Positions 47,690 through 61,987 of a DNA stretch of 64,000 nt are shown here, one piece after another. The stretch spans positions 1 to 64,000 of the forward strand of contig NZ_JANIBJ010000021.1 in NCBI RefSeq assembly GCF_024505185.1. The letters are read 5' to 3'. Every line of letters starts with the position of its first letter. Position 1 is the stretch's first letter. The notes below the pieces were generated by a model. The model did no database searches and was not told the origin of the DNA. It saw only the letters and a program-made list of their open reading frames with translations. Made by a program: the position numbers and the translations under genes. Source of the stretch: Methylomonas subterranea. GTDB taxonomy: Bacteria; Pseudomonadota; Gammaproteobacteria; Methylococcales; Methylomonadaceae.

Positions 47690-47739
47690 CTCACCGGAGG
47701 CTGTCGTAAAAGCCCCCTCTCCTTGTGGAAGAGGGTTCC
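47690..47739. repeat. REP-like palindrome at the deletion end of nhaD
   Basis: CACCGGAGGCTGTCGTAAAA leads into CCCCCTCTCCTTGTGGAAGAGGG, the same family as the repeats at 10712 and 43670. It directly abuts the last recognisable codons of the decayed nhaD, so a repeat sits at a deletion junction. Confidence 0.65.
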
Positions 47740-48511
47740 GGCATGTCGGGGTTCATCGTCAACACCGCAAACATAATAGGAATGTTGTCGACCAGCGCCG
47801 ACATCAGGCCGACGATGATATTGGCGGCCGTCGCGCCCAACTCGCCGTAAATGAATTCGAAAACGATATTCAGATAACGCCCTTTTGCCAAACCATCAAC
47901 GTGCTGATGTCGCCGAAAGGGCTGAAGGCCCCTCCGGCATTGGCCGCAACCACTATAGCAACGCAGGCCGGGGTTACGAATCTCGGCTGTTGGTCGCCCA
48001 GCGTCATCGCCACGGTGCACATGACCAAGGCGGAAGTCAGGTTGTCGGCCACCGACGAAATAAAAAACGTCAGAATACCGATCAGCCAAAACATCCGCCG
48101 ATAGCTCAAGCCCTTGGAAACCAACCAATAATGCAGTGATTGAAAAACATCTCGCTCTATCATGGCGTTGATGTAAGTCATCGCCACCAACAAAAAGAAA
48201 AACAGTTCGCTATATTCCAGAAAATTGTCCTTCAAGATCGCCGCAGTGGTGTCGGTGACGCCCCGCGCGGCATAGGCAAAGCCTATCATCGCCCAAATGA
48301 TGCCGGCGGCCAGCAATACCGGTTTGGATTTACGCAAGGCTAATTTTTCCTCGAGGATCACCAAAACGTAAGCGGCCAAAAAAACCAACAATGCCAGATA
48401 GCCGACGGTTTGCTGGGTTAGATTGAGATAAGCGTGCTCGCCGGCCGCGGCCAATACTGGGAGGGGCAAAAGACAGGCGATTGCGCATAAAATGACGGGA
48501 ATGTTTAACAT
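47740..48511 (-). pseudogene. nhaD: Decayed Na+/H+ antiporter NhaD
   Basis: The first part (48511 to about 47873) encodes a recognisable NhaD N-terminal half: a signal-like start, several TM helices, SSVADNLTSALVMCTVAM and the family motif GGAFSPFGDISTLMVWQKG. The frame then breaks. A different frame continues with EFIYGELGATAANIIVGLMS and ALVDNIPIMFAVLTMNPDM, which belong near the NhaD C-terminus. So roughly 150-200 residues are deleted with a frameshift, and the final residues are lost where a REP-like repeat begins. The gene cannot make a complete antiporter. The start is either 48511 or 48544. Confidence 0.85.
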
Positions 48512-48641
48512 CTCGATTGAAAAAATAGTATCCAAGAACAACAACGGCAGCGGTTTGCCGCGTCGAGTTTAACCCTATCCGCCAAGCCCAGCGGCGCCGG
48601 CGGCGGAACGTCCAACCATGAACTCTACAAAAACACCGGGA

Positions 48642-51600
48642 TTAAACATCCCCACCCACGCCTTTAAACTTCTCGACAAAAGCGGCAATTTTTTGGAAAA
48701 CGCTGTGCTTTTTACTGAGGTATTGCGGGTTTAACGGGCTCATCTTGGGCAGAATGGCATTCAGCTCGGTGCCGTTGTCACTGGCAAACTCCCGCTTCAG
48801 CGAAGTAGCGATATAGCGCCTCGCGGCCTCGGCATTCAGGTTCTCGGCACTAATCAGCTCATGCGCTTCGCGCTGTTGCTCCGCTTGCGCAAAAATAAAG
48901 AAGGCATCAATCACACTGGCCTTATCGCCAATCTGATCCAGGTCGGTTTGGTTAATAAAATCAACCAGCAAGCTCTCCTTGGCACGGTTGCCCAAGCTGG
49001 CGCGAATCACCCGACGCACGTCTTCAACCAGCGCTGCTTTGTCTTTGACTTTTTTATTGTTCTCAAAAATCAATTCCAGAATGTAATCCAGATTGATTTC
49101 TTGAGATTTCAGCAGGTCCACCTCAAATACCACGTCATCCCAATCGATGGTGGAATTTTCCTTTTCGACGGCGGATTTTTCCCGCCGCAGCCAGTCGCGG
49201 ATGTCGTTATAGGTGGAGCGGTAATCCTGAATTTTCCGCTCGGCGGGGACTTTGATGGCTTGCAGCGCAATCAGGTCGTCATCGCTCAGATAATGTTGGG
49301 CTTTGAATGTCTCAACCGCCTCCTGGTCGTTCATGTCGACGCTCTGCAAGGCTTTCAGACTGGCAAATTCATCGTAGTTTTGCAGCACGTTCTCAACGCG
49401 CAAATATTCGCCAAACAGTTTCGCAAAAGCTTTTTTGTCGGACTCTTTTTCAATGGCAGTTGGATCAGGAAAGCGCTGCCCCAACTCAGCGACCACATCC
49501 ACAAAGCCGCGCCGCGCCTCGCCGGTCGCCACATCGGTAAAGCCTTCCATGTATTCCTTGTAGCTCTTTTCCAGCACCACGTTCTTGGTGTTCTTATCAC
49601 CGAACAAGGTGATAGCGGCTATGGTCGCCTGCTCCAGGTCGCGGAAGGTGACGATATTGCCGAAGGTTTTGGTGGCGTCATAAATACGGTTGGTTCGCGA
49701 ATAAGCCTGCATCAAACCGTGGTAGCGCAAGTTCTTATCGACGAACAAGGTATTCAGCGTGGGGGCGTCAAAGCCGGTCAAGAACATACCTACCACAATC
49801 AGCAAGTCGATTTCTTTGGCTTTCACTTGCTTGGCAAGATCGCGGTAATAGTTCTGGAATCCGTTGCCATCCACGCCAAAATTGGTTTTGAACAGCGCGT
49901 TGTAGTCCGCAATGGCCGCGCTTAAAAACTCCTTGGCACTGCTGTTCATGGCTGAAACATCAAAACTCTCATCCTGAATTTCGCCCACCGCATCCTGTTC
50001 TTCATTGGCCGCAAACGAGAAGATGGTGGCCACTTTCAGCGGCTTGTCGCTGGCTTTTTGCAAATCCTTCAACGACTCGTAATACAGCTTGGCGGCATCC
50101 ACACCACTCACGGCAAACATCGCATTAAAGCCTTTGGCCCCAGCCTGTAAGCGATGAGTTTTTTGCCGGAAGTTATTCAAGATGTACTGTGAAATTTCCC
50201 GAATACGCTCGGGGTGCAACAAGGCTTGCTTGTTTTCTGCCGCGCTGAGCTTAAGCTCATCCTGCTCGGTTTCGATGGCTTTGAACTGCGGGCGCACATC
50301 GTTGTAGTCCACTTTGAACTTCAGTACTTTTTCATCGCGGATGGCATCGGTGATGACGTAAGCATGCAATTCACGGCCAAACACGCTGGCGGTGGTGTCG
50401 GCACCCAAGGCGTTTTGCGGGAAGATCGGCGTGCCGGTAAAACCGAACTGATAGAACTTCTTGAATTTCTTCTTCAGGTTTTTCTGCGCTTCGCCAAACT
50501 GGCTGCGGTGGCACTCGTCAAAAATAAACACCACTTGCTTGCTGTAGATGGCCAAGTCATTTTCACTTTTCATCAGGTTGTTAAGCTTCTGGATGGTGGT
50601 GACAATGATCTTGTTGTCGTCCTTATCCAAGTTGCGTTTCAGCCCGGCAGTGCTGTCCGAGCCATTGACGCTATCCGGTGAAAAGCGCTGGTATTCCTTC
50701 ATGGTCTGGTAATCGAGGTCTTTCCTATCCACCACAAAAAACACCTTATCGATAAAGTCCAGCCCCGTCGCCAAACGCGCCGCTTTAAAACTGGTTAAGG
50801 TCTTGCCCGAGCCGGTGGTGTGCCAGATATAACCGCCGCTTTCGGTGTTGCTCCAGTTTTTGGCTTGATAGGCGCTGTTGATTTTCCACAGAATCCGTTC
50901 GGTGGCGGCAATCTGGTAAGGGCGCATTACCAGCAAGGTATCGCTGACATCAAACACCGAATAATGCAACAGCACATTGAGCAGGGTGTTTTTCTGGAAG
51001 AAGGTTGCGGTAAAGTCTTTTAAGTCCTTAATCAGCCCATTATCGGATTTCGCCCAGTTCATGGTGAAATCGAAGCTGTTTTTGTTGCGCTGGGTGGTGT
51101 TGGCAAAATAACGGCTATCGGTGCCGTTGGTAATCACAAACAGCTGCAAATACTTAAACAAGGAATGCTCGCTGTTAAAGCTCTCTTTGCTGTAGCGATG
51201 CACCTGATTAAACGCCTCGCGTATCGCCACGCCCCGTTTTTTCAGCTCCACCTGCACCAGCGGCAAACCATTCACCAAAATCGTCACATCGTAGCGATTG
51301 GCGTACTGTTTACTCCCCTCCTTTGCAGGGGTGGCGCAAAGCGCCGGGGTGGTTTCAAACTGATTGATGACTTGCAGCTTATTGCGGGCAATGTTCTTTT
51401 TATCCAACAGGTAGATGTTCTGGATACGGCCATCGTCAAACACAAAGTCGTGGATAAAGTCATCATGAATCTTGCGAGTTTTATCGACGATGCTATCGTT
51501 GGGCCTATCCAGCCAAGTCTCCACAAAACGCAGCCATTCACCATCGGAAAACTGCATGTTGTTCAGCGCCTGTAAAGCCACGCGCACATTGGCCAGCAGC

Positions 51601-51776
51601 TTATCGGGCGTGTTTAACTCGGGCGCATATTCATAGCCCTGATTTTGCAAATCCTGAATAAATTCCCGCTCCAAATCGTATTCGCTTTGGTAGCTTTCGC
51701 TAACTTTATAGTCCTTGGTGTATTTATCCAGAACGATAAAATTAGTGGATTCGGCAATCGTTTTATACTCTGTCAC
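48642..51776 (-). CDS. hsdR: Type I restriction enzyme, R subunit
   Basis: HsdR supplies DNA translocation and cleavage for a type I R-M complex. The 1044-aa protein has the nuclease core near residues 155-185 ([23 protein letters not shown], a PD-ExK pattern), Walker [13 protein letters not shown] near 318, a DECHRSQFG motif II near 415, and a helical C-terminus that docks on HsdM. In residues about 141-155 a piece of palindromic repeat is inserted in frame ([13 protein letters not shown]), just before the nuclease core. The start overlaps the yhcG-like stop by 4 bp. It is the last gene of the hsd operon. Confidence 0.95.
51314..51356. repeat. Palindromic repeat embedded in hsdR
   Basis: CCCCTCCTTTGCAGGGG followed by TGGCGCAAAGCGCC and GGGGTGG, the same family as the repeats in hsdS and the DUF559 gene. 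It stays in frame in hsdR and adds about 14 residues. Confidence 0.75.
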
Positions 51777-52810
51777 TGGTTTGATTCTCCATATCCCTGT
51801 GCTAGCTCGTTTTCAATCTCTTGCACTGTTGGCAACTGTGACTGCACCGACAAGGGAATATCTTTGGTGATGAACGAACTCACCCCCATGGGTTTGTTGA
51901 TGTCGCGCAGGGCGTATTCCACATCCAGCTTGTCTTTGTCCTTACACAAGATCAGGCCAATCGTGGGCTGGTCATCCTCAGCACGTAGTTGGTCGTCTAC
52001 TGCCGACAAGTAAAAATTGAGTTTGCCAATGTACTCGGGCTTGAATTCGCCCGCCTTTAATTCGATCGCCACGTAGCACTTCAATCGGGCGTGATAAAAC
52101 AACAAATCCAGAAAGTAATCCTTGCCATTCACGACCAAGGGGTATTGGCGCCCAAGGAACGCAAAGCCCTTGCCTAGCTCCAGCAAAAAACGGGTGATCT
52201 GTGCCACCAGCTGGTTTTCGATATCGCGTTCAACCGCCTGCGGTGCGAGGGTCAAAAAATCGAACACATAAGGATCTTTCAGGCTCTGTTGCACCAGCTC
52301 CGATTGGGGCGCCGGTAAAGTTTGAGCAAAATTACCGACCGCCTTGCCCACACGCTCATGAAAACGCTGCTCAATTTGCCACGCTAGCACCGTGCGGCTC
52401 CAGCCATGCTCGATGCAGGCCTGCGCGTACAGCAAAACCAGCTCCACCGATTTGACCTTAGCCAACAAGGTGCGCACGTGTCCCCATGGCATTTGTCCCA
52501 CAGGCTGCGGGACAAATTCAAATTGCGGGCTGAAAAAGGCATAAAACTGCCGCATGGCAAACAGGCTGGTACGAGAGAACCCCTTCATGCCGGGGTAAGT
52601 GGCCTGCAAATCCAGCGCCATTTGCTCCACCACCGCCGAGCCCCAAGCACGCTCGCGTTGCCACGCATCCAACTGGCTGCCAATGTCCCAATACAGATTC
52701 AACAACTCAGCATTCACCGCCAACACCGCACGGGTTTGCGATGTTTGAATACGCTGCTTAATGACTGCCAGCGCCTGACGGTAATCGGTGTGGTGAGTAA
52801 TCTCGCTCAT
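51773..52810 (-). CDS. YhcG-like PD-(D/E)XK nuclease family protein (DUF1016)
   Basis: The 345-aa protein has a helical N-terminal domain (about 1-170, [11 protein letters not shown] near 38, [10 protein letters not shown] near 107) and a C-terminal nuclease-like domain with [26 protein letters not shown] near 215-240, which fits the PD-(D/E)XK signature (D, then E-x-K). Members are often carried inside restriction loci and mobile elements. It is tightly placed between the broken rhuM and hsdR, overlapping hsdR by 4 bp, so it is part of the hsd operon. Confidence 0.85.
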
Positions 52811-52812
52811 TC

Positions 52813-53245
52813 CTATGTGTCCCTGTTTTGCAGCAGCTCTTTCACTTCACGGTCGAAATCGAATTCGACGCGTTGTTGCTTGTTAAACTTTTCATATTCC
52901 GCAATAGCTTGCCTGTGTCGAATTGACACTGTAACCGACCGAAATCACCGCATCCAGATTGTAATACTTGGTCTTGCTGGTTTGGGTTTTGCCCTCAATC
53001 GCCCCATGGGCAGTGGTATGTTCCAAAATGGAACACACCACATCTTCTTGCAGCTCATGGCTTTCGAAAATGTTTTTCAGGTGCTTGGTAATAGCTGGGC
53101 GCTGCACGCCAAACAACTCAGCCATGCGCTCCTGCGTCAGCCAGATAGTTTCATTACTGAGCAGCACCTCTACTTTGATTGCGCCATTGGGCGCGGTGTA
53201 GAGCAAGAATTCCGTGGTTTGGTCTTGCAGGCTTAGGTTAGGCAT
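52813..53245 (-). pseudogene. RhuM-family gene with internal deletion and frameshift
   Basis: The first 110 codons match the RhuM (virulence RhuM) family: TEFLLYTAPNGAIKVEVLL, ETIWLTQERMAELFGV near 33 and KYYNLDAVISVGYSVNS near 93. The frame then ends after ASYCGI. In another frame the DNA continues with AIAEYEKFNKQQRVEF and FDREVKELLQ to a stop at 52813, the typical RhuM C-terminal end. The whole middle is missing, so an internal deletion with frameshift inactivated it. The start overlaps the DUF559 gene by 8 bp. RhuM genes often ride in type I R-M operons. Confidence 0.85.
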
Positions 53246-53804
53246 AGGGTTCCTTCCTGATGCGCTGGAAATTATTCTCTTCCTCTGAAGGGGCGAGCTT
53301 CAGTTGCTCGGTTACGCACTCTGCAAACGCCGGGAGTTTATTCCCTTCCTCCGGAGGTCTCCCGGTTAGTGCTGGGTTATTCATTTCATCTGGAAGACAG
53401 GCGGGGGTATTCCCCTCCTCCGGAGGGGTGCCCGTCAGGGCGGGGTGGTTCTTCAAAAACGCCACAACCCCGTCCAAATTCTGCAAAACATCTTTCGCCA
53501 ACAGGCGAATCACCGTTAACCCCAAACTACACAGCCATTCATCTCTCTGGGCATCTTCAAGCTGCTTGCTGTCGTGAGAACTGCCATCCACTTCAATCAC
53601 AACCGCCTTTTCCGCACAGTAAAAATCGACGATGTAGTTGCCAATAATTTTTTGGCGATCGAAATCCAAGCCATTCAGTTTGTCTGATTTTAATTCAAGC
53701 CAAAGTAACGCTTCGTGCAGTATTCCCGCTTTGCGCAAAGCTTTGGCCTTATCGCGCAAAGCAGGGTTATAAGGGAGGGATTGGTAAGCTTTGGTTTTGC
53801 GCAT
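53238..53804 (-). CDS. DUF559 (Vsr-like) nuclease-domain protein with embedded repeats
   Basis: Residues about 1-115 form a DUF559 domain of the Vsr/very-short-patch-repair nuclease fold: LRKAGILHEALLWLELKS, DFDRQKIIGNYIVDFYC near 48 and VVIEVDGSSHD near 68. The tail (about 118-188) consists mostly of translated palindromic repeats: [27 protein letters not shown] and a degenerate APSEEENNF. The domain is complete without the tail. It sits between hsdS and the rhuM remnant. A biological role in restriction is possible but unproven. Confidence 0.8.
   Translation of the reverse strand: MRKTKAYQSLPYNPALRDKAKALRKAGILHEALLWLELKSDKLNGLDFDRQKIIGNYIVDFYCAEKAVVIEVDGSSHDSKQLEDAQRDEWLCSLGLTVIRLLAKDVLQNLDGVVAFLKNHPALTGTPPEEGNTPACLPDEMNNPALTGRPPEEGNKLPAFAECVTEQLKLAPSEEENNFQRIRKEPYA
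53340..53460. repeat. Two palindromic repeats embedded in the DUF559 gene
   Basis: TTCCCTTCCTCCGGAGG (about 53344-53360) and TTCCCCTCCTCCGGAGGGG followed by TGCCCGTCAGGGCGGGGTGG (about 53410-53449). Both are translated as part of the C-terminal tail. Confidence 0.8.
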
Positions 53805-53814
53805 GGTGGCCTCG

Positions 53815-55340
53815 TTAGGCTAAGCCTTCGGTACCACCCCGCCCTTCGGGCACCCCTCCAAAGGAGGGGAATTGGGTGCGCTGTACCTTTGATCCATGGG
53901 GTGCGGCGAAGTCATTCTCCGCCTCTGGATGTATACCCATCAGGGTTAGGTTATTCCCCACCTCTGAAGGTGCCGGGGCGAAGTTATTCCCCTCCTCTGA
54001 AGGTGGCGGAGCGGGGTTATTCCCCACCTCTGAAGGTGCCGGGGCGGGGTTATTCCCCTCCTCTGGAGGGGTGCCCGTCAGGGCGGGGTGGTGGAAGCTC
54101 AACAGCAAATCGCGGTAATACTCATACTGCTTTTGGCGCAAGGCAATTTCGCGGGGCAAGCCTTCGCTGATGGAATTGGTCAGGGCGTCGAATTTATCGA
54201 GGATGGCGACGATGCGGGCTTGTTCGGCGAGTGACTTTTCAGGATCGTTTGGATAGGGAATCGGGATGGCTATTTTTGAAAAGCCGTTAATCAGCAATGT
54301 ATTGACTTTGGTTCTTGCCACATACTTTGCTTTCTCTGCAATGAATGATGCCGTTTGCATGCAATAGGACACAAATTTCGGATTCAATGAATGCCGGAAA
54401 GCGTAGCAGTGGTCGTGAATGGCAACTTTTTCATCTCCGAGCCATGCCACGGCCTTACCAACATCGTCGACCGTCTCTCCAACGTCGGTTAGCACTACGT
54501 CTCCCGGTTTTGCATAGCGTAGAGACCCAGCCATATCGCTTCTGACCTGAGAAAGCGCACGAGTCGTAAAAACGCCATACCGAGTGTATATCTCACCGTA
54601 ATGGATAACGCTGATGCCGTCTTCAACATAATCGGCTTTAGTAAAGCGTTTTCCGCGAATGAATTCCCCAATTTCGCCCAACGTCTTCCACTCCACATCC
54701 CGACCACCCCGCCCTTCGGGCACCCCTCCAGAGGAGGGGAATTCAAAACTCAACAACTGGTCGCGATAGTAGTTGTATTGTTTTTTTCGCATGCTAAGCT
54801 CGGCGGTCAGCTCGGCGGTCAGCTCGGTAAAGGCGTCCAGAATGCGGACGATTTCGGCTTGGATCTCAAGCGATTTTTTGGGATTTTCAGGGCAAGGGAT
54901 GGGAATTTCGAACTTATCAGTATCTGGCGTTGCAATTTGCGGCATTTGCATCTTACTGCCAATGTTCTGAAAGTGGGGTTCATTCAGTTTCAGAAAATGG
55001 TAAACATACTTGATATGGATTCCGTCGTTTTTTGAATGGTATGACCACATTTCATTTTTATGAGAAAACGGTTTGTCGTAATACTCGAATTCTATAACAC
55101 CACGAGATTTGACGATAATTGAAGGCTCGTTATTTAAGTCTTTTGCGGGTATATCTTCAAAATCAACGAATGCAACAGTTTTACCGCCAGCGAAAATTTT
55201 CACCGGGGCACCATCTTTATGAATTTCTTTCATCTGGCCAGCGGTGATCTTTGTGCCCTTAGTTCTAACAAGCGCATCCCCGATTGGTTTCCACTTTACC
55301 GAAACGCCATCCACCAGCTTCCCCAAAAAGTTCAGGCTGC

Positions 55341-55344
<4 letters not shown>
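53815..55344 (-). CDS. hsdS: Type I restriction enzyme, specificity subunit with in-frame repeat insertions
   Basis: HsdS recognises the target sequence through two TRDs. TRD1 covers about 1-175; the first conserved helix region is near 180-200 ([18 protein letters not shown]). A palindromic repeat then adds about 12 residues ([13 protein letters not shown], near 202) before TRD2 starts ([18 protein letters not shown]). The second conserved region ends [19 protein letters not shown] near 415, and from 418 to 509 the tail is made of translated repeats, including four 33-bp tandem units. So repeats lie after the same LLSF motif in both halves. The start overlaps the hsdM stop (ATGA). Confidence 0.92.
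53836..53876. repeat. Palindromic repeat at the hsdS 3' end
   Basis: CCACCCCGCCCTTCGGGCA followed by CCCCTCCAAAGGAGGGG. It encodes the last residues of HsdS ([13 protein letters not shown]). Confidence 0.8.
53950..54092. repeat. 33-bp tandem repeat array in the hsdS tail
   Basis: Units start at 53950, 53983, 54016 and 54049 with the pattern GTTATTCCCC(A/T)CCTCTGAAGG, exactly 33 bp apart; the last runs into a full palindromic repeat (GTGCCCGTCAGGGCGGGGTGG). Each unit encodes 11 residues, such as [12 protein letters not shown] multiple of three keeps the frame, so copy number can change without breaking HsdS. Confidence 0.9.
54706..54741. repeat. Palindromic repeat between the two halves of hsdS
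   Basis: CCACCCCGCCCTTCGGGCA and CCCCTCCAGAGGAGGGG, in frame between the central conserved region and TRD2. Confidence 0.8.
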
Positions 55345-57157: not shown

Positions 57158-58330
57158 TCAGCGCGCCTCGCCGAACCAATGCTGAGTGCGCTTGCAAAAC
57201 CCGACCAGGGCCAACATCAGCGGCACCTCTATCAATACGCCGACCACGGTAGCCAGCGCGGCGCCGGACGACAGGCCGAACAGCATCACGGCGGTGGCGA
57301 TGGCGACTTCGAAATGGTTGGAGGCGCCTATCATGGCCGATGGGGCGGCGTTTTCGTAGGAAAAGCCCCACAGCTTGGCGGCCCAATAGGTAATCGCGAA
57401 AATCAGCACGGTTTGTATCGCCAACGGAATCGCAATCCACAATATGGTCAACGGATTGGCGGTGATCACCTCGCCCTTGAAGGAAAACAGCAGCACCAGC
57501 GTCAGTAATAAGGCGATGATGGTGATGGGTGTCAGCAGATGCAGGAATTTTTGTTCGAACCAGTCCAGGCCTTTATGGGCGATAATCCATTTACGCGAAT
57601 AAAACCCGGCCAGCAAAGGCAAGGCCACATAGATGCCGATGGACAACAACAGGGCTTCCCAAGGCACCGGCAATTGGCCGACGCCCAGCAGGAATCCGCC
57701 GATCAAGCCGTACAACAGCAGCATCGCCAATGAGTTGATCGCCACCATCACCAGGGTATGGCCGGCATTGCCCTTGGCCAGATAGCCCCACACCAGCACC
57801 ATCGCGGTGCAGGGGGCCACGCCCAACAAAATGCAGCCGGCCAGATAGCTGCGCCATAGCGGCACTTGCAGCATTTTAATGCCGTCTTGCAACACCACGG
57901 TGCCGGCACCGTATTCGGAACCGACCGGCAAATCCAGGCCAAACGGCATTTTGACCAAATCCACCGCATCGGCGCCGATCAGGCCTTGAAACAAACCGCC
58001 CAAAAACAAATAGGCGATACCGTACATCGTGAACGGCTTGATCGCCCAGTTGACGATTAATGTCAGGCTGACCGGTTTGATGCTCTTGCCGGCCTTGACC
58101 ACTTCGGCGAAATCTATCTTGACCATGATGGGATACATCATGAAAAACAGGCAGATGGCAATCGGTATCGATACGACCGGCGCTCCGTTAATGGTGAGGC
58201 TCATGCCGTCCAGGGTCTTGGCGAAATCCGGCGCGTAAGCCCCCAGCAGTATGCCGGCGGCAATGCACAAGCCCACCCAGAGGGTCAGATAACGTTCGAA
58301 AAAGCCCATGGGGTGTTGTTTGGCTGTCAT
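57158..58330 (-). CDS. acr3: Arsenite efflux transporter Acr3
   Basis: Acr3 exports arsenite from the cytoplasm. The 390-aa protein has about ten TM helices. The family cysteine is in [16 protein letters not shown] near residue 155, and the conserved acidic residue is in [14 protein letters not shown] near 335. The start at 58330 fits the family N-terminus; the longer frame upstream lies in the arsI-like gene. It is the last gene of the ars operon and may take arsenite passed on by the ArsA ATPase, which is known for Acr3 as well as ArsB. Confidence 0.93.
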
Positions 58331-58376
58331 GGTGTTGGCCTCGTTGGTTTTGTTTTTAGTGGTCCAAGTCCGCCGA

Positions 58377-58811
58377 TCATTCGGGTTCCGTGGCTTTGCA
58401 GCAGGGAGAAAGCTTGTCGACCCGAATGACGGGATCTTCGCCGAACAGCGGTATCGAATTGAGTGAATGAAAGGCTTCCCAGGCGATGCCTTGCGGGTCG
58501 ACGCTCCAGTATTTGTCCGATTGCACGTAACAGCAGGTGGCTTGTTTTTGTTCCGCAACCGGCAGAGCCGCGTCGACCAAGGCCTGCTGCACGGCTTCCA
58601 GTTCCTCGCTCGATTCCACCTGTACCCCTAAATGATCCAGTCCCGCTTGGCGTCCGCGACTGGAAATGGCGAAATTCACCCGCGGATCGTCCAACAGCCA
58701 TTTGGCGTAGTCGCTTTTTAAGACGCTCGGTTGGCTTTGGAACAAGGCGCTGTAAAAGCGGATGTTTTGTTCGAGATCGTCGACGGCGATATGGATATGC
58801 AGGCGTTTCAT
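58377..58811 (-). CDS. arsI: ArsI/CadI-like dioxygenase, putative C-As lyase
   Basis: ArsI breaks the carbon-arsenic bond of trivalent methyl- or aromatic arsenicals. The 144-aa vicinal-oxygen-chelate protein starts [19 protein letters not shown] (H5 or H7 as first iron ligand), has HLGVQVES near 60 (second His), the vicinal cysteines in [12 protein letters not shown] near 93, the region that binds the arsenical, and GIAWEAF (Glu ligand) near 112. The CC pair and its context match ArsI, but CadI-type proteins share much of this, so substrate is inferred. It lies between arsC and acr3. Confidence 0.8.
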
Positions 58812-58825
58812 GGGAATGGTTCCGG

Positions 58826-59347
58826 TTAATTTGAATTTATGTCTGGCGAGGACTGCGTGGCGCCAAGTTCGTCGACCCTGTTTTTCAAGGTGATGGCGTC
58901 CAGTTTGTGCAATGGCAGGTTGCAAAACAATTCGATGCGCCGTTTCAGCAACAAGTAGGTGTCGAAAAACAATTTTTGCACCCGCTCGTCGTCGGCATAC
59001 AGCATGGCCGGGTCTTCCACGCCCCAATGCGCGCGCATCGGCTGACCGGGCCAGACCGGGCAAGGCTCGCCGGCGGCTTTGTCGCAGACGGTAAATACAA
59101 AATCGAAGCTCGGCGCGTCCTCGGTTGTGAATTCCCGCCAATCCTTGCTGCGTAATTCGCCGGTGTCATGATTCAAGCTGTTCAGCAATTGGAGCGCGGC
59201 GGGATGGACGTAGCCTACGGGATGACTGCCGGCGCTATAGCCACGAAATCGGCGGCCGCCGATTTGATTCAATATCGCCTCGGCCATGATGCTGCGCGCC
59301 GAGTTGCCGGTACAGATGAATAAAACCCGATAGGTTTTGTCCGTCAT
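58826..59347 (-). CDS. arsC: Arsenate reductase, LMW-phosphatase type (second copy)
   Basis: This 173-aa enzyme reduces arsenate to arsenite. It has the P-loop CTGNSARS near residue 13, and the two further redox cysteines in VCDKAAGEPC near 87-95, the layout of thioredoxin-coupled ArsC. RAHWGVEDPA near 103 follows. The start MTDKTYRV at 59347 is preferred over the ATG six codons earlier. It is longer at the C-terminus than the first copy (61508) and clearly diverged from it, so this is not a recent duplication. Confidence 0.9.
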   Translation of the reverse strand: MTDKTYRVLFICTGNSARSIMAEAILNQIGGRRFRGYSAGSHPVGYVHPAALQLLNSLNHDTGELRSKDWREFTTEDAPSFDFVFTVCDKAAGEPCPVWPGQPMRAHWGVEDPAMLYADDERVQKLFFDTYLLLKRRIELFCNLPLHKLDAITLKNRVDELGATQSSPDINSN

Positions 59348-59369
59348 ATCGCTTTCCGATATCAATCTA

Positions 59370-61124
59370 TTAATGGCCGACCAGCGTCAGCAAGCGTTCG
59401 ACGCCTATTGGCTCTTGTTGCAGCAAAGGCACCACGGCATGCCGCTGGGTATGTTGCGTGGCGACGGCCTCGATTTCGGGTAGCTCATTAGCCGCCCTTT
59501 GTCGCAGTAATGGCGATTTAGCTTTACTTGCCGCGACGCTGGCATTGATGATCCAGGCCCAGACAGCCATGCCGGCGCGTTTCAGGTCGGCTTGCAGATT
59601 GGCGGCTTCCAATACCGGCGTGGTCTCCGCCAGCGTGACGATCAGCACCTTGGTGCGATGCTGGTCCTGTAAGCGCATTAACGGCGTCGTGTAATGCAAG
59701 TCCTTGGCGTCCATTTGCCGGCCGACTTCGCGGTGATAGGCGCCGGTGGCATCCAGCAACAGCAAGGTATGGCCGGTCGGCGCGGTGTCCATCACCACGA
59801 ACTGGCTGTCCGCTTCGCGAATGATGGCGGAAAAGGCCTGGAACACCGCGATTTCCTCGGTGCAGGGAGAGCGCAGGTCTTCCTCCAATAAGGCGCGGCC
59901 TTGCTCATCCAATTTAGCGCCCTTGGTCTCCAGCACATACTGGCGGTAGCGTTCGGTTTCCTGTTGCGGGTCGATGCGGCTGACGGCCAGATTGTCCAGC
60001 GTGCCGTTCAGGGTCTCGCTCAAATGTGCGGCTGGGTCCGATGTGGTCAGGTGCACCGGCAATCCGCGCCGGGCCAATTCCACCGCAATGGCGGCGGCCA
60101 GGGTGGTTTTGCCGACGCCGCCCTTACCCATCAGTAGAATCAAACCGTGTTGGTCTTGGGCGATTTCATCCACCAGATCGGACAGCTTGGGTTCGTCCGG
60201 TTCCAGAGGCGAATCGACGGCGATTTCGGTCGTTGTGGGGGTGTCTTCGAATAGTTGCCGCAATGCGGTCGGGCCCACCATATTGAACGGCTTCAGCATC
60301 AGCCTGTCGCACGGCAGCCTTTGCAAAACGTCGGGCATGTTTTGCAGCGCGGCGAGTTCGCGTTCGTGTATGGCGGCTGCTAGCGGATCATTTTCAGCTT
60401 CGCTTTGCGGCAGGATGCCGTTGATGAGCAAATGCTGTTGCGACAAGCCAATCGCCGCCAGTTCCGCATGAGTGCGAGCGACTTCGCGCAAGGGGGCTTG
60501 CTGGGCGCGCGCAACCAGAATCAAACGCGTGCGCCGGCTATCGGCCAAGGCGTCGACGGCGGCCTTGTATTGCTCGCGCTGTTTCTCCAGGCCCGCCAAC
60601 GGTCCCAGACAGGATGCATCGCCCTTGCCGGCGTCCAAGAAACCGCTCCAGGCGCCGGGCAGTTGCAACAGGCGCATGGTGTGGCCGGTCGGCGCGGTAT
60701 CGAACACGATATGGTCATAGCCAGCCGTCAGCGCGCTATCGGTCAGCAGCGCGGTGAATTCGTCGAAGGCGGCGATTTCAGTGGTGCAAGCACCGGATAG
60801 TTGTTCTTCCATGCTTTTGACGACGGATTCCGGCAACAATCCCCGCACCGGCCCGACGATGCGGTCGCGGTAGGCTTGGGCGGCCGCTTGCGGGTCGATC
60901 TCCAGCGCCGACAAGCCGGGCACGTTTGCTATCGCCGTGATGGTGTTGCCGATGTTGACGCCGAATACTTGGCCCACATTGGAGGCCGGGTCGGTACTGA
61001 CCAGCAGCACCTTGCGACCGGTCTCGGCCAAATGAATGGCCGTGGCGCAGGCCACCGAGGTCTTGCCGACGCCGCCCTTGCCGGTAAAAAACAAAAAGCG
61101 CGGCGGTCGATCGAGGAATTTCAT
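59370..61124 (-). CDS. arsA: Arsenite-translocating ATPase ArsA
   Basis: ArsA is the ATPase that powers arsenite efflux. The 584-aa protein has two homologous halves, each with a P-loop (FFTGKGGVGKT near 13 and LMGKGGVGKTT near 330) and the signature DTAPTGHT near 143 and 450. Cysteines in LSGACTTEI, ASCLGPL and LRSPCTEEI match the metalloid-binding Cys of the family. The start at 61124 gives the family N-terminus. It lies 10 bp after arsD, its usual metallochaperone partner. Confidence 0.95.
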   Translation of the reverse strand: MKFLDRPPRFLFFTGKGGVGKTSVACATAIHLAETGRKVLLVSTDPASNVGQVFGVNIGNTITAIANVPGLSALEIDPQAAAQAYRDRIVGPVRGLLPESVVKSMEEQLSGACTTEIAAFDEFTALLTDSALTAGYDHIVFDTAPTGHTMRLLQLPGAWSGFLDAGKGDASCLGPLAGLEKQREQYKAAVDALADSRRTRLILVARAQQAPLREVARTHAELAAIGLSQQHLLINGILPQSEAENDPLAAAIHERELAALQNMPDVLQRLPCDRLMLKPFNMVGPTALRQLFEDTPTTTEIAVDSPLEPDEPKLSDLVDEIAQDQHGLILLMGKGGVGKTTLAAAIAVELARRGLPVHLTTSDPAAHLSETLNGTLDNLAVSRIDPQQETERYRQYVLETKGAKLDEQGRALLEEDLRSPCTEEIAVFQAFSAIIREADSQFVVMDTAPTGHTLLLLDATGAYHREVGRQMDAKDLHYTTPLMRLQDQHRTKVLIVTLAETTPVLEAANLQADLKRAGMAVWAWIINASVAASKAKSPLLRQRAANELPEIEAVATQHTQRHAVVPLLQQEPIGVERLLTLVGH

Positions 61125-61134
61125 GGCGTGGACC

Positions 61135-61491
61135 TTAGCAGCACTTGCCGCCGCTGCAACAGCCGGACGCTGGATTTTCCGCAACGGTATCGATGGCGGC
61201 CCAGCGCGCCAGTTCGCTTCGATTAGGATAGCGGCCTGCCAGCGCCACTTCGCCATCGAGCAGAATCAAAGGCAGCGCTTCAGCGCCGGAGCGTTCCAAA
61301 AACGCTTTGACCACCGGGTTTTCCGCAAAGACCAGCGGTTGTTGAGCGAGGTTGAAGCGCTCGATTTGCGCGCCGTTTTGCTTGGCCCAATCGATGTCGG
61401 CGAATACATCCACCAATTGCTGATCGACGTCCACCCCGCAAACGCCGGTGCTGCAACATAAAGCAGGATCGAAAATTTGAATAGTGCTCAT
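61135..61491 (-). CDS. arsD: Arsenic metallochaperone ArsD
   Basis: ArsD hands trivalent arsenic to ArsA. The 118-aa protein has the essential cysteines in ALCCSTGVCG (C12, C13, C18) and two C-terminal cysteine clusters (SGCCSGGKCC). The rest fits the thioredoxin-like ArsD fold. It lies directly before arsA, the usual order. Confidence 0.94.
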   Translation of the reverse strand: MSTIQIFDPALCCSTGVCGVDVDQQLVDVFADIDWAKQNGAQIERFNLAQQPLVFAENPVVKAFLERSGAEALPLILLDGEVALAGRYPNRSELARWAAIDTVAENPASGCCSGGKCC

Positions 61492-61507
61492 GACAAACTC
61501 CCAAAAA

Positions 61508-61987
61508 TCAAGGTAACAAGCCGCCGATACGGTCCAACTCGGCTTGCAGACGCGTTGGATCGTTTTTTAACTCATCCAACGGCAGGGCCAGGAAGGTCTC
61601 GATGCGGTGGCGCAAAATGCCGTAGGCAGTCTCGAAAGCGGCCTTGATTTCCGCTTCGGTGCCTTGGGCATGGGCCGGGTCTTCCACACCCCAATGGCTG
61701 CGCATGACCGAGCCTAGATAAGCCGGACAGGTTTCATTGGCGGCATTGCCGCAGACGCTGATGACGATGTCCGGCGCGGTCGGCAGGTCGTTCCAGGATT
61801 TGCTGTAATAGCCCTCGATGGAGATGCCCTTTTCTTGCAGCAATGCCACCGCGCCGCTGTTCAAGCGGCCGATGGGCTTGCTGCCAGCGCTGATCGCATG
61901 CCAGCCCGCCGGAGCCAGATGGTTGAAAACGGCTTCGCCCATCAGGGAGCGACAGGAATTACCGGTACATAGAAATAACACGTTCAT
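61508..61987 (-). CDS. arsC: Arsenate reductase, LMW-phosphatase type (first copy)
   Basis: The 159-aa protein has the P-loop CTGNSCRS near residue 7 and a redox pair in VCGNAANETC near 79-86, again the thioredoxin-coupled type; SHWGVEDPAHA near 97 matches the family. It is the second gene of the operon, 24 bp after arsR. Together with the copy at 58826 the operon encodes two arsenate reductases. Confidence 0.92.
   Translation of the reverse strand: MNVLFLCTGNSCRSLMGEAVFNHLAPAGWHAISAGSKPIGRLNSGAVALLQEKGISIEGYYSKSWNDLPTAPDIVISVCGNAANETCPAYLGSVMRSHWGVEDPAHAQGTEAEIKAAFETAYGILRHRIETFLALPLDELKNDPTRLQAELDRIGGLLP

Follow-up and report, generated by a model that had tools for sequence, protein, structure and literature searches.

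A nuclease gene amid palindromes in a restriction locus

The window analysed here, a whole stretch of 64,000 nucleotides (positions 1 to 64,000 of contig NZ_JANIBJ010000021.1, assembly GCF_024505185.1) from the gammaproteobacterium Methylomonas subterranea, encodes on its minus strand a gene set comprised of hsdM, hsdS, a gene for a DUF559 nuclease, a rhuM remnant, a yhcG-like gene, and hsdR. The DUF559 gene is bounded by two inverted palindromes, with which it forms a compact cassette, and further palindrome copies lie in its own tail and within hsdS and hsdR (Table 1). The pattern CCCCTCCNNNGGAGGGG, with up to three mismatches, occurs at 10 places in the 64-kb window (mean 2.9 and maximum 7 in 100 shuffles), none of which falls in hsdM or the yhcG-like gene (0/10). 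A chance origin of the copies was rejected on these window shuffles and on the flank statistics of relatives given below. The mapping of the copies agrees with an earlier annotation made from the DNA letters of this stretch (the sequence-only reading), which had reported about ten related palindromes across hsdR, the DUF559 gene, and hsdS, with hsdM and the yhcG-like gene spared.

The DUF559 protein of the window scores 106.4 bits against PF04480 (curated cut-off 20.6), and both model and fold matches place its core among the PD-(D/E)XK/Vsr-fold nucleases, near I-Bth0305I, Vsr, and TnsA. The candidate catalytic-site residues E71, D73, and H77 are intact in 53/53 sequences, which predicts nuclease activity; a PADLOC match to DpdF (E 3e-5) covers 50 residues. 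Control genomes of Caulobacter and Corynebacterium also hold DUF559 genes, viral contigs yielded one relative, and plasmids yielded relatives below 60% identity only. On plasmid pAQ6 of Picosynechococcus PCC 7002 (L199; L, G, and C denote our loci, genomes, and contigs), a DUF559 gene sits amid other GC-rich hairpins of the form CCCCC-n-GGGGG.

Linkage, class pairing, and third strand of the palindromes

The 117-residue DUF559 core was searched against 84,980 species genomes, yielding 243 confirmed relatives; the best 80 (56–91% identity; clade A) form the set used below. Of these, 74 were assigned to phyla, 20 in total, and many come from metagenome-assembled genomes. A perfect palindrome, CCCCTCC-n2-4-GGAGGGG, lies within 250 bp upstream of the gene at 73/80 loci, downstream at 55/80, on either side at 76/80, and on both sides at 52/80. 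The full 250 bp was available upstream at 73/80 and downstream at 75/80 loci, and 65 of the 68 loci with both flanks complete have the palindrome. Its density falls from 1.74 (upstream) and 1.15 (downstream) per 250-bp bin beside the gene to 0 to 0.06 beyond 1 kb, and of the open reading frames (ORFs) that these loci hold at distances above 2.5 kb, 1/96 has a perfect palindrome within 250 bp. DUF559 genes and palindromes are thus linked, whereas the chemistry that might join them, discussed below, is predicted.

Comparison of the loci also delimits the unit and its ends. In 252 full elements, drawn from 76 of 81 sources (the window and the loci), the sequence runs as ATT-CCCCTCC-n-GGAGGGG-spacer-GGGGTGG-T and then passes sharply into unrelated flanks; the initial ATT is present at 91–98% per position, and the spacer is predicted to fold as a second hairpin (stem of at least 4 in 71/96 distinct spacers vs 11% of shuffled ones). 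Where both palindromes of a clade A locus can be oriented, 42/47 pairs are inverted. A Nitrosomonadales contig (L038) matches the window at 85% identity over 469 columns (window 53408-53873), a block delimited by the outer ends of the two palindromes; outside this block it matches in repeat copies only, and its upstream ORF encodes a sensor kinase. For 8/10 nearest relatives the match ends at most one base from the same downstream end, and several of these ten have restriction genes in common with the window. The unit hence shares with insertion sequences the terminal inverted repeats, its block ends being the outer palindrome ends; its sole protein is the DUF559 nuclease, and no transposase of a known family was found in the cassette.

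The pairing extends to other subclades of the nuclease, each of which has its own palindrome class as judged by comparison across the tree. In the window's taxonomic family these classes are B1 (CCCTCTCCC-n-GGGAGAGGG), B2 (CCCTCTCC-n-GGAGAGGG), C (CCCCCCTTT-n-AAAGGGGGG), and D (CCCTCCCC-type). On a FastTree phylogeny of 158 DUF559 domains (117 columns, many forks open; L007, L141, and L167 have no usable DUF559 domain), the five classes at 143 classed loci require 7 changes (minimum 4), as against a shuffled mean of 60.7, with 0/200 shuffles as low; the count leaves out the 15/158 rows without a class (10 with no hairpin, 5 'other') and gives a single class to each of four two-class loci. Genome background does not explain this pairing because one genome can hold several classes: each of the four DUF559 genes in G001 is paired with a different class (L030 B2, L123 B1, L140 C, and L160 D), and the M. 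subterranea genome itself has class A in the window and B2 on another contig.

The flanking hairpins were also scanned for the third strand that an antiparallel purine-motif triplex requires, namely a mirror of the pure purine arm (A or T being accepted for A) within 32 bases on either side; the scan covered those hairpins whose purine arm is pure. An exact mirror accompanies 313/344 flanking hairpins, with about 15 expected, and is found in all classes (A 189/212, B1 32/35, B2 27/28, C 36/39, D 21/22, other 8/8; permuted-pattern expectations 8.3, 2.0, 1.4, 1.3, 0.8, and 1.2, respectively). With one mismatch allowed, class A is inseparable from the control (200 vs 162 expected). The class B flanks of DUF559 genes carry the BoxC third strand, GGGTGAGGG. 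By their sequence grammar the flanking palindromes are PIT/BoxC class II intrastrand-triplex motifs, and they may fold as such; in vitro, triplex folding has been reported for the E. coli element (PMC4666352).

The same combination recurs in loci drawn with the Pfam model, taken as the best-scoring of each search: a palindrome with exact third strand lies within 250 bp of the gene at 27/30 loci in a class of Bacteroidota (far windows 1/116) and at 23/29 in Pseudomonadota (far windows 2/116). In 25 genomes with a known clade A gene it is present at 28/30 loci (far windows 0/106), a sample that overlaps the 80-locus set and is not independent of it. DUF559 matches (E ≤0.001) were found in 80/201, 83/149, and 68/200 sampled genomes, a frequency that carries the question far beyond the window.

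Insertions in restriction genes, presence and absence of cassettes, and Escherichia coli

As read from alignments with relatives, the palindromes in the restriction genes of the window are insertions. Twelve residues of the window's HsdR are missing from five hsdR loci at 72–80% identity (L164 and L040 share one sequence, which leaves four distinct loci). The linker concerned holds separate palindromes in the hsdR genes of L049, L050, and L054 (~45–50% identity), where both orientations occur. Among six HsdS relatives read, that of L047 has a repeat-free central linker; in the other five (L039, L040, L049, L050, and L054) at least one of the two linkers holds copies, placed behind LLSF-type motifs. 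The alignment with repeat-free homologues that the sequence-only reading had called for thus supports its proposal of in-frame insertions, in both orientations, into permissive linkers and after an LLSF motif. Translated palindromes explain why these restriction proteins have tails and linkers of low complexity. A separate conjecture, that element length is a multiple of three, found no support (remainders 0, 1, and 2 in 138, 38, and 76 of 252 elements).

What did not hold is the other half of that interpretation, a repeat spread over the whole genome as in Rickettsia. In the M. subterranea genome (4,412,311 bases), TYCCCCTCCNNNGGAGGGGTG with up to two mismatches occurs at five places, all in the window stretch; the sequence-only reading had itself named absence from the rest of the genome as the outcome that would speak against it, and we rejected the genome-wide repeat on this count. 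A looser core pattern gives 86 places at up to two mismatches (33 for the reversed control), and at up to one mismatch 5/6 places are in the window stretch; many of the listed places outside the stretch resemble the other palindrome class. Three DUF559 genes are present in this genome, and the window's one sits amid the palindrome copies. The repeats belong to that nuclease gene and are motifs of the PIT/BoxC triplex type. We also observed 64 copies of class B CCCTCTCC-n-GGAGAGGG in this genome vs a single class A cluster.

Restriction genes are a recurrent but not exclusive surrounding of the cassettes. In neighbor tallies from the 80 loci (closed-frame ORFs, 103 near and 96 far), the near neighbors of clade A cassettes include HsdS (24), HSDR_N (7), N6_Mtase (4), and RhuM (4), whereas HsdS accounts for 2/96 far ORFs; the majority of the neighboring ORFs are not restriction genes. 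In some loci the DUF559 domain itself lies inside the stop-to-stop frame of HsdS (L016, L033, L118), HsdM (L122), or Type_ISP or MmeI-like enzymes (L129, L130).

Table 1. Cassette, palindrome copies, and host genes in the window
Feature	Position	Strand	Basis or remark
Palindrome-DUF559-palindrome cassette, inverted terminal palindromes, 465 bp	53409..53873	-	DNA match to L038 (85%) and flank statistics
DUF559 (Vsr-fold, PD-(D/E)XK-like) nuclease gene	53238..53804	-	Pfam PF04480 E 9e-31; model and fold matches
DUF559 core domain	53454..53804	-	C-terminal tail consists of translated palindromes
Full class A element upstream of DUF559	53833..53873	-	Forms the hsdS 3' end as well
Full class A element downstream of DUF559 core	53409..53449	+	In-frame part of DUF559 tail
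Two degenerate palindrome copies (~53277, ~53343), DUF559 tail	53268..53380	+	
hsdS tail: degenerate copy near 53908 and three partial 33-bp units (~53946-54042)	53905..54042	+	
Full class A element, hsdS tail	54052..54092	+	
Full class A element, hsdS central linker	54703..54743	-	Linker repeat-free in L047
Class A element in hsdR, directly ahead of RYDVT motif	51312..51353	+	Missing from hsdR of L164/L040, L047, L043, L039
hsdS, carrying six or seven copies	53815..55344	-	PF01420
hsdR, carrying one copy	48642..51776	-	PF04313, PF12008, and others

Adjoining the cassette is the RhuM-like gene (52892-53245), shortened to 117 aa, with an end that looks rearranged; its Pfam RhuM score is below the cut-off, and PADLOC matches it to PDC-S05. 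Farther off, the window has ORFs that by eye resemble arsenic-resistance genes (57158-61987; ACR3-type carrier, ArsC, ArsA, ArsD) and an antiporter-like gene, NhaD-like by eye, apparently split over two frames (47691-48544).

Presence and absence of cassettes can be followed at the second cassette of the M. subterranea genome, that of class B2, which lies between frames resembling, by eye, the end of hsdR and the start of hsdM. Among 37 genomes of the genus, three have the cassette between both flanks (G000, G189, G165) and one matches the cassette and the right flank (G153), whereas in G011, G177, G529, and G525 both flanks (~90–93% identity) lie 3–18 bases apart without the cassette; no palindrome was found in the stretch read at this empty site. 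Solo palindromes of class B track the B nuclease: they are present in 33/35 genomes that have a B gene (median 14), in 10/26 genomes with C or D genes only (median 0), and in 59/140 remaining genomes (median 0), the reversed pattern giving 0. For class A, 321 genomes of the window's taxonomic class include nine with the pattern, six with a clade A-like gene (E ≤1e-20), and four with both.

The E. coli member of the DUF559 family is ycjD, located between sapF and fabI, and at least 80% of a query spanning it is present in 3,361/5,426 complete E. coli genomes. In MG1655, ycjD occupies 1351407-1351760, and copy 9 of 23 of BoxC lies at 1351204-1351239, 167 bp from the ycjD 3' end; a further BoxC-like element overlapping the end of ycjD is fuller in another strain and degenerate in K-12. 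YcjD falls nearest the B1 rows of the tree, on a long branch. Two E. coli strains without ycjD (L202, L203) were considered as empty sites and rejected, as they have efflux genes after sapF instead. BoxC has been known in E. coli since the 1990s, and PMC4666352 states that the gene contexts of its E. coli sites revealed no mobility activities; the words ycjD, sapF, and fabI are absent from the text of that paper. Our literature search, whose reach did not include bioRxiv and most subscription papers, found no link between DUF559/YcjD and these repeats. No enzyme or function is yet known for BoxC; the DUF559 nucleases are candidate enzymes for this repeat family, and with both ycjD and BoxC present in E. 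coli K-12 the pairing is open to direct test.

Proposed mechanism, alternatives, and comparison with known systems

We propose that the palindrome-DUF559-palindrome unit is probably a minimal mobile cassette, in which a Vsr-fold nuclease would act on its own triplex palindrome. The sole protein of such a cassette would be the nuclease, and its ends intrastrand-triplex palindromes built of a pyrimidine arm, a loop, a purine arm, a spacer, and a mirror third strand. Each nuclease subfamily would bind and recognize its own palindrome class, probably on an exposed, folded strand, and cut at or beside it, upon which repair or replication might copy the palindrome to new places, alone or with the gene. 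Copies would persist at sites of low cost to the host, such as hsdS/hsdR linkers and operon junctions, which would account for the translated copies in hsdS and hsdR here. Both the repeat and the nuclease families are known, and it is their class-by-class pairing that is new. Going further, we see about an even chance that DUF559/YcjD nucleases are general mobilizers of bacterial PIT/BoxC triplex repeats, which would make the repeats a class of transposase-free mobile DNA, with each nuclease subfamily reading its own folded three-stranded palindrome and with restriction-gene linkers as a recurrent home.

Several observations weigh against this proposal. All linkage and presence counts ignore kinship; 4/80 clade A genes have no palindrome within 250 bp, although two of these (L098 and L099) have variants; and in Bacteroidota the pair orientation is mostly reversed (14/19 among L240-L269, third strands outward), for which we offer no explanation. 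The empty and occupied states come from a single site with flanks ~90% identical, no readable duplication, and blurred junctions at which a few bases differ. Palindromes also occur without a detected cognate gene, for class B in the 59/140 genomes noted above and for class A in 5/9 genomes with the pattern, one of which has 23 copies. In E. coli, BoxC lies only downstream of ycjD, the upstream hairpin being something other than BoxC.

The main rival to the mobile cassette is homing, wherein the palindromes spread otherwise, by slippage or recombination, and the nuclease targets them such that its gene lands beside them via break repair, making the palindrome a landing site rather than offspring. 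We regard this as unlikely, though as deserving more weight than the other alternatives. A classical homing gene splits its one target, whereas 52/80 loci have whole palindromes on both sides, mostly inverted, and the block homologous to L038 takes in both of them; the lack of a palindrome in the stretch read at the empty B2 site points the same way but, being a single site, counts for little. It is improbable that the DUF559 protein instead serves in repair as a nuclease like Vsr, with palindromes that act as terminators or as hairpins of some other regulatory kind and have no special link to it, even though, in cells that lack a cytosine methylase, a Caulobacter DUF559 protein is tied to an SOS response (PMC12907096), and termination is presumed by the authors of PMC2869309. 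The class-by-class pairing, the third strand, and the copies inside reading frames argue against such a role, and earlier work cited in PMC4666352 reported no terminator or promoter activity.

A role in diversifying restriction genes, whereby nuclease and palindromes promote recombination in hsdS linkers and thus swap target-recognition halves, could draw on the excess of HsdS among near over far neighbors (24/103 vs 2/96) and on the palindromes or DUF559 domains inside HsdS frames; yet most near neighbors are not HsdS, and the E. coli gene and the L038 cassette have other neighbors, which leaves this reading slightly less credible still than the repair or regulatory one. Movement of the palindromes as REP elements by a RAYT (Y1 transposase), a search for which the sequence-only reading had recommended, is very improbable, and we rejected it: of 11 Y1_Tnp (RAYT-type) matches in the genome, 0 are on the window's contig (C21) and no Y1 gene lies beside the palindromes, the window palindrome is found only beside DUF559 in this genome, and the elements begin with ATT, with no GTAG or CGTC tag.

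Set beside known systems, the mobile cassette proposed here shares with the BoxC/PIT/TM elements the grammar of pyrimidine arm, purine arm, and mirror third strand, but PMC4666352 describes those as lying between genes in E. coli, with no gene for their mobility. The elements studied here flank a nuclease gene, follow its subclades class by class, and occur inside reading frames. With the EDxHD/Vsr-fold homing endonucleases (e.g., I-Bth0305I) the DUF559 protein shares a fold, but its gene has a whole palindrome at either end, the two inverted, and does not interrupt a single target. REP/RAYT systems comprise short palindromes flanking one gene, with class-specific pairing and solo genomic copies; the DUF559 cassettes are alike in this architecture but encode an unrelated enzyme (Vsr fold, not Y1/HUH), and in place of the GTAG/CGTC tag they have the third strand. 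Rickettsia palindromic elements are translated in frame inside proteins, as are the copies described here, which are found only around a single nuclease gene. In the defining features tested, the DUF559-palindrome pair differs from both REP/RAYT and classical homing genes, and it comes with no transposase of a known family.

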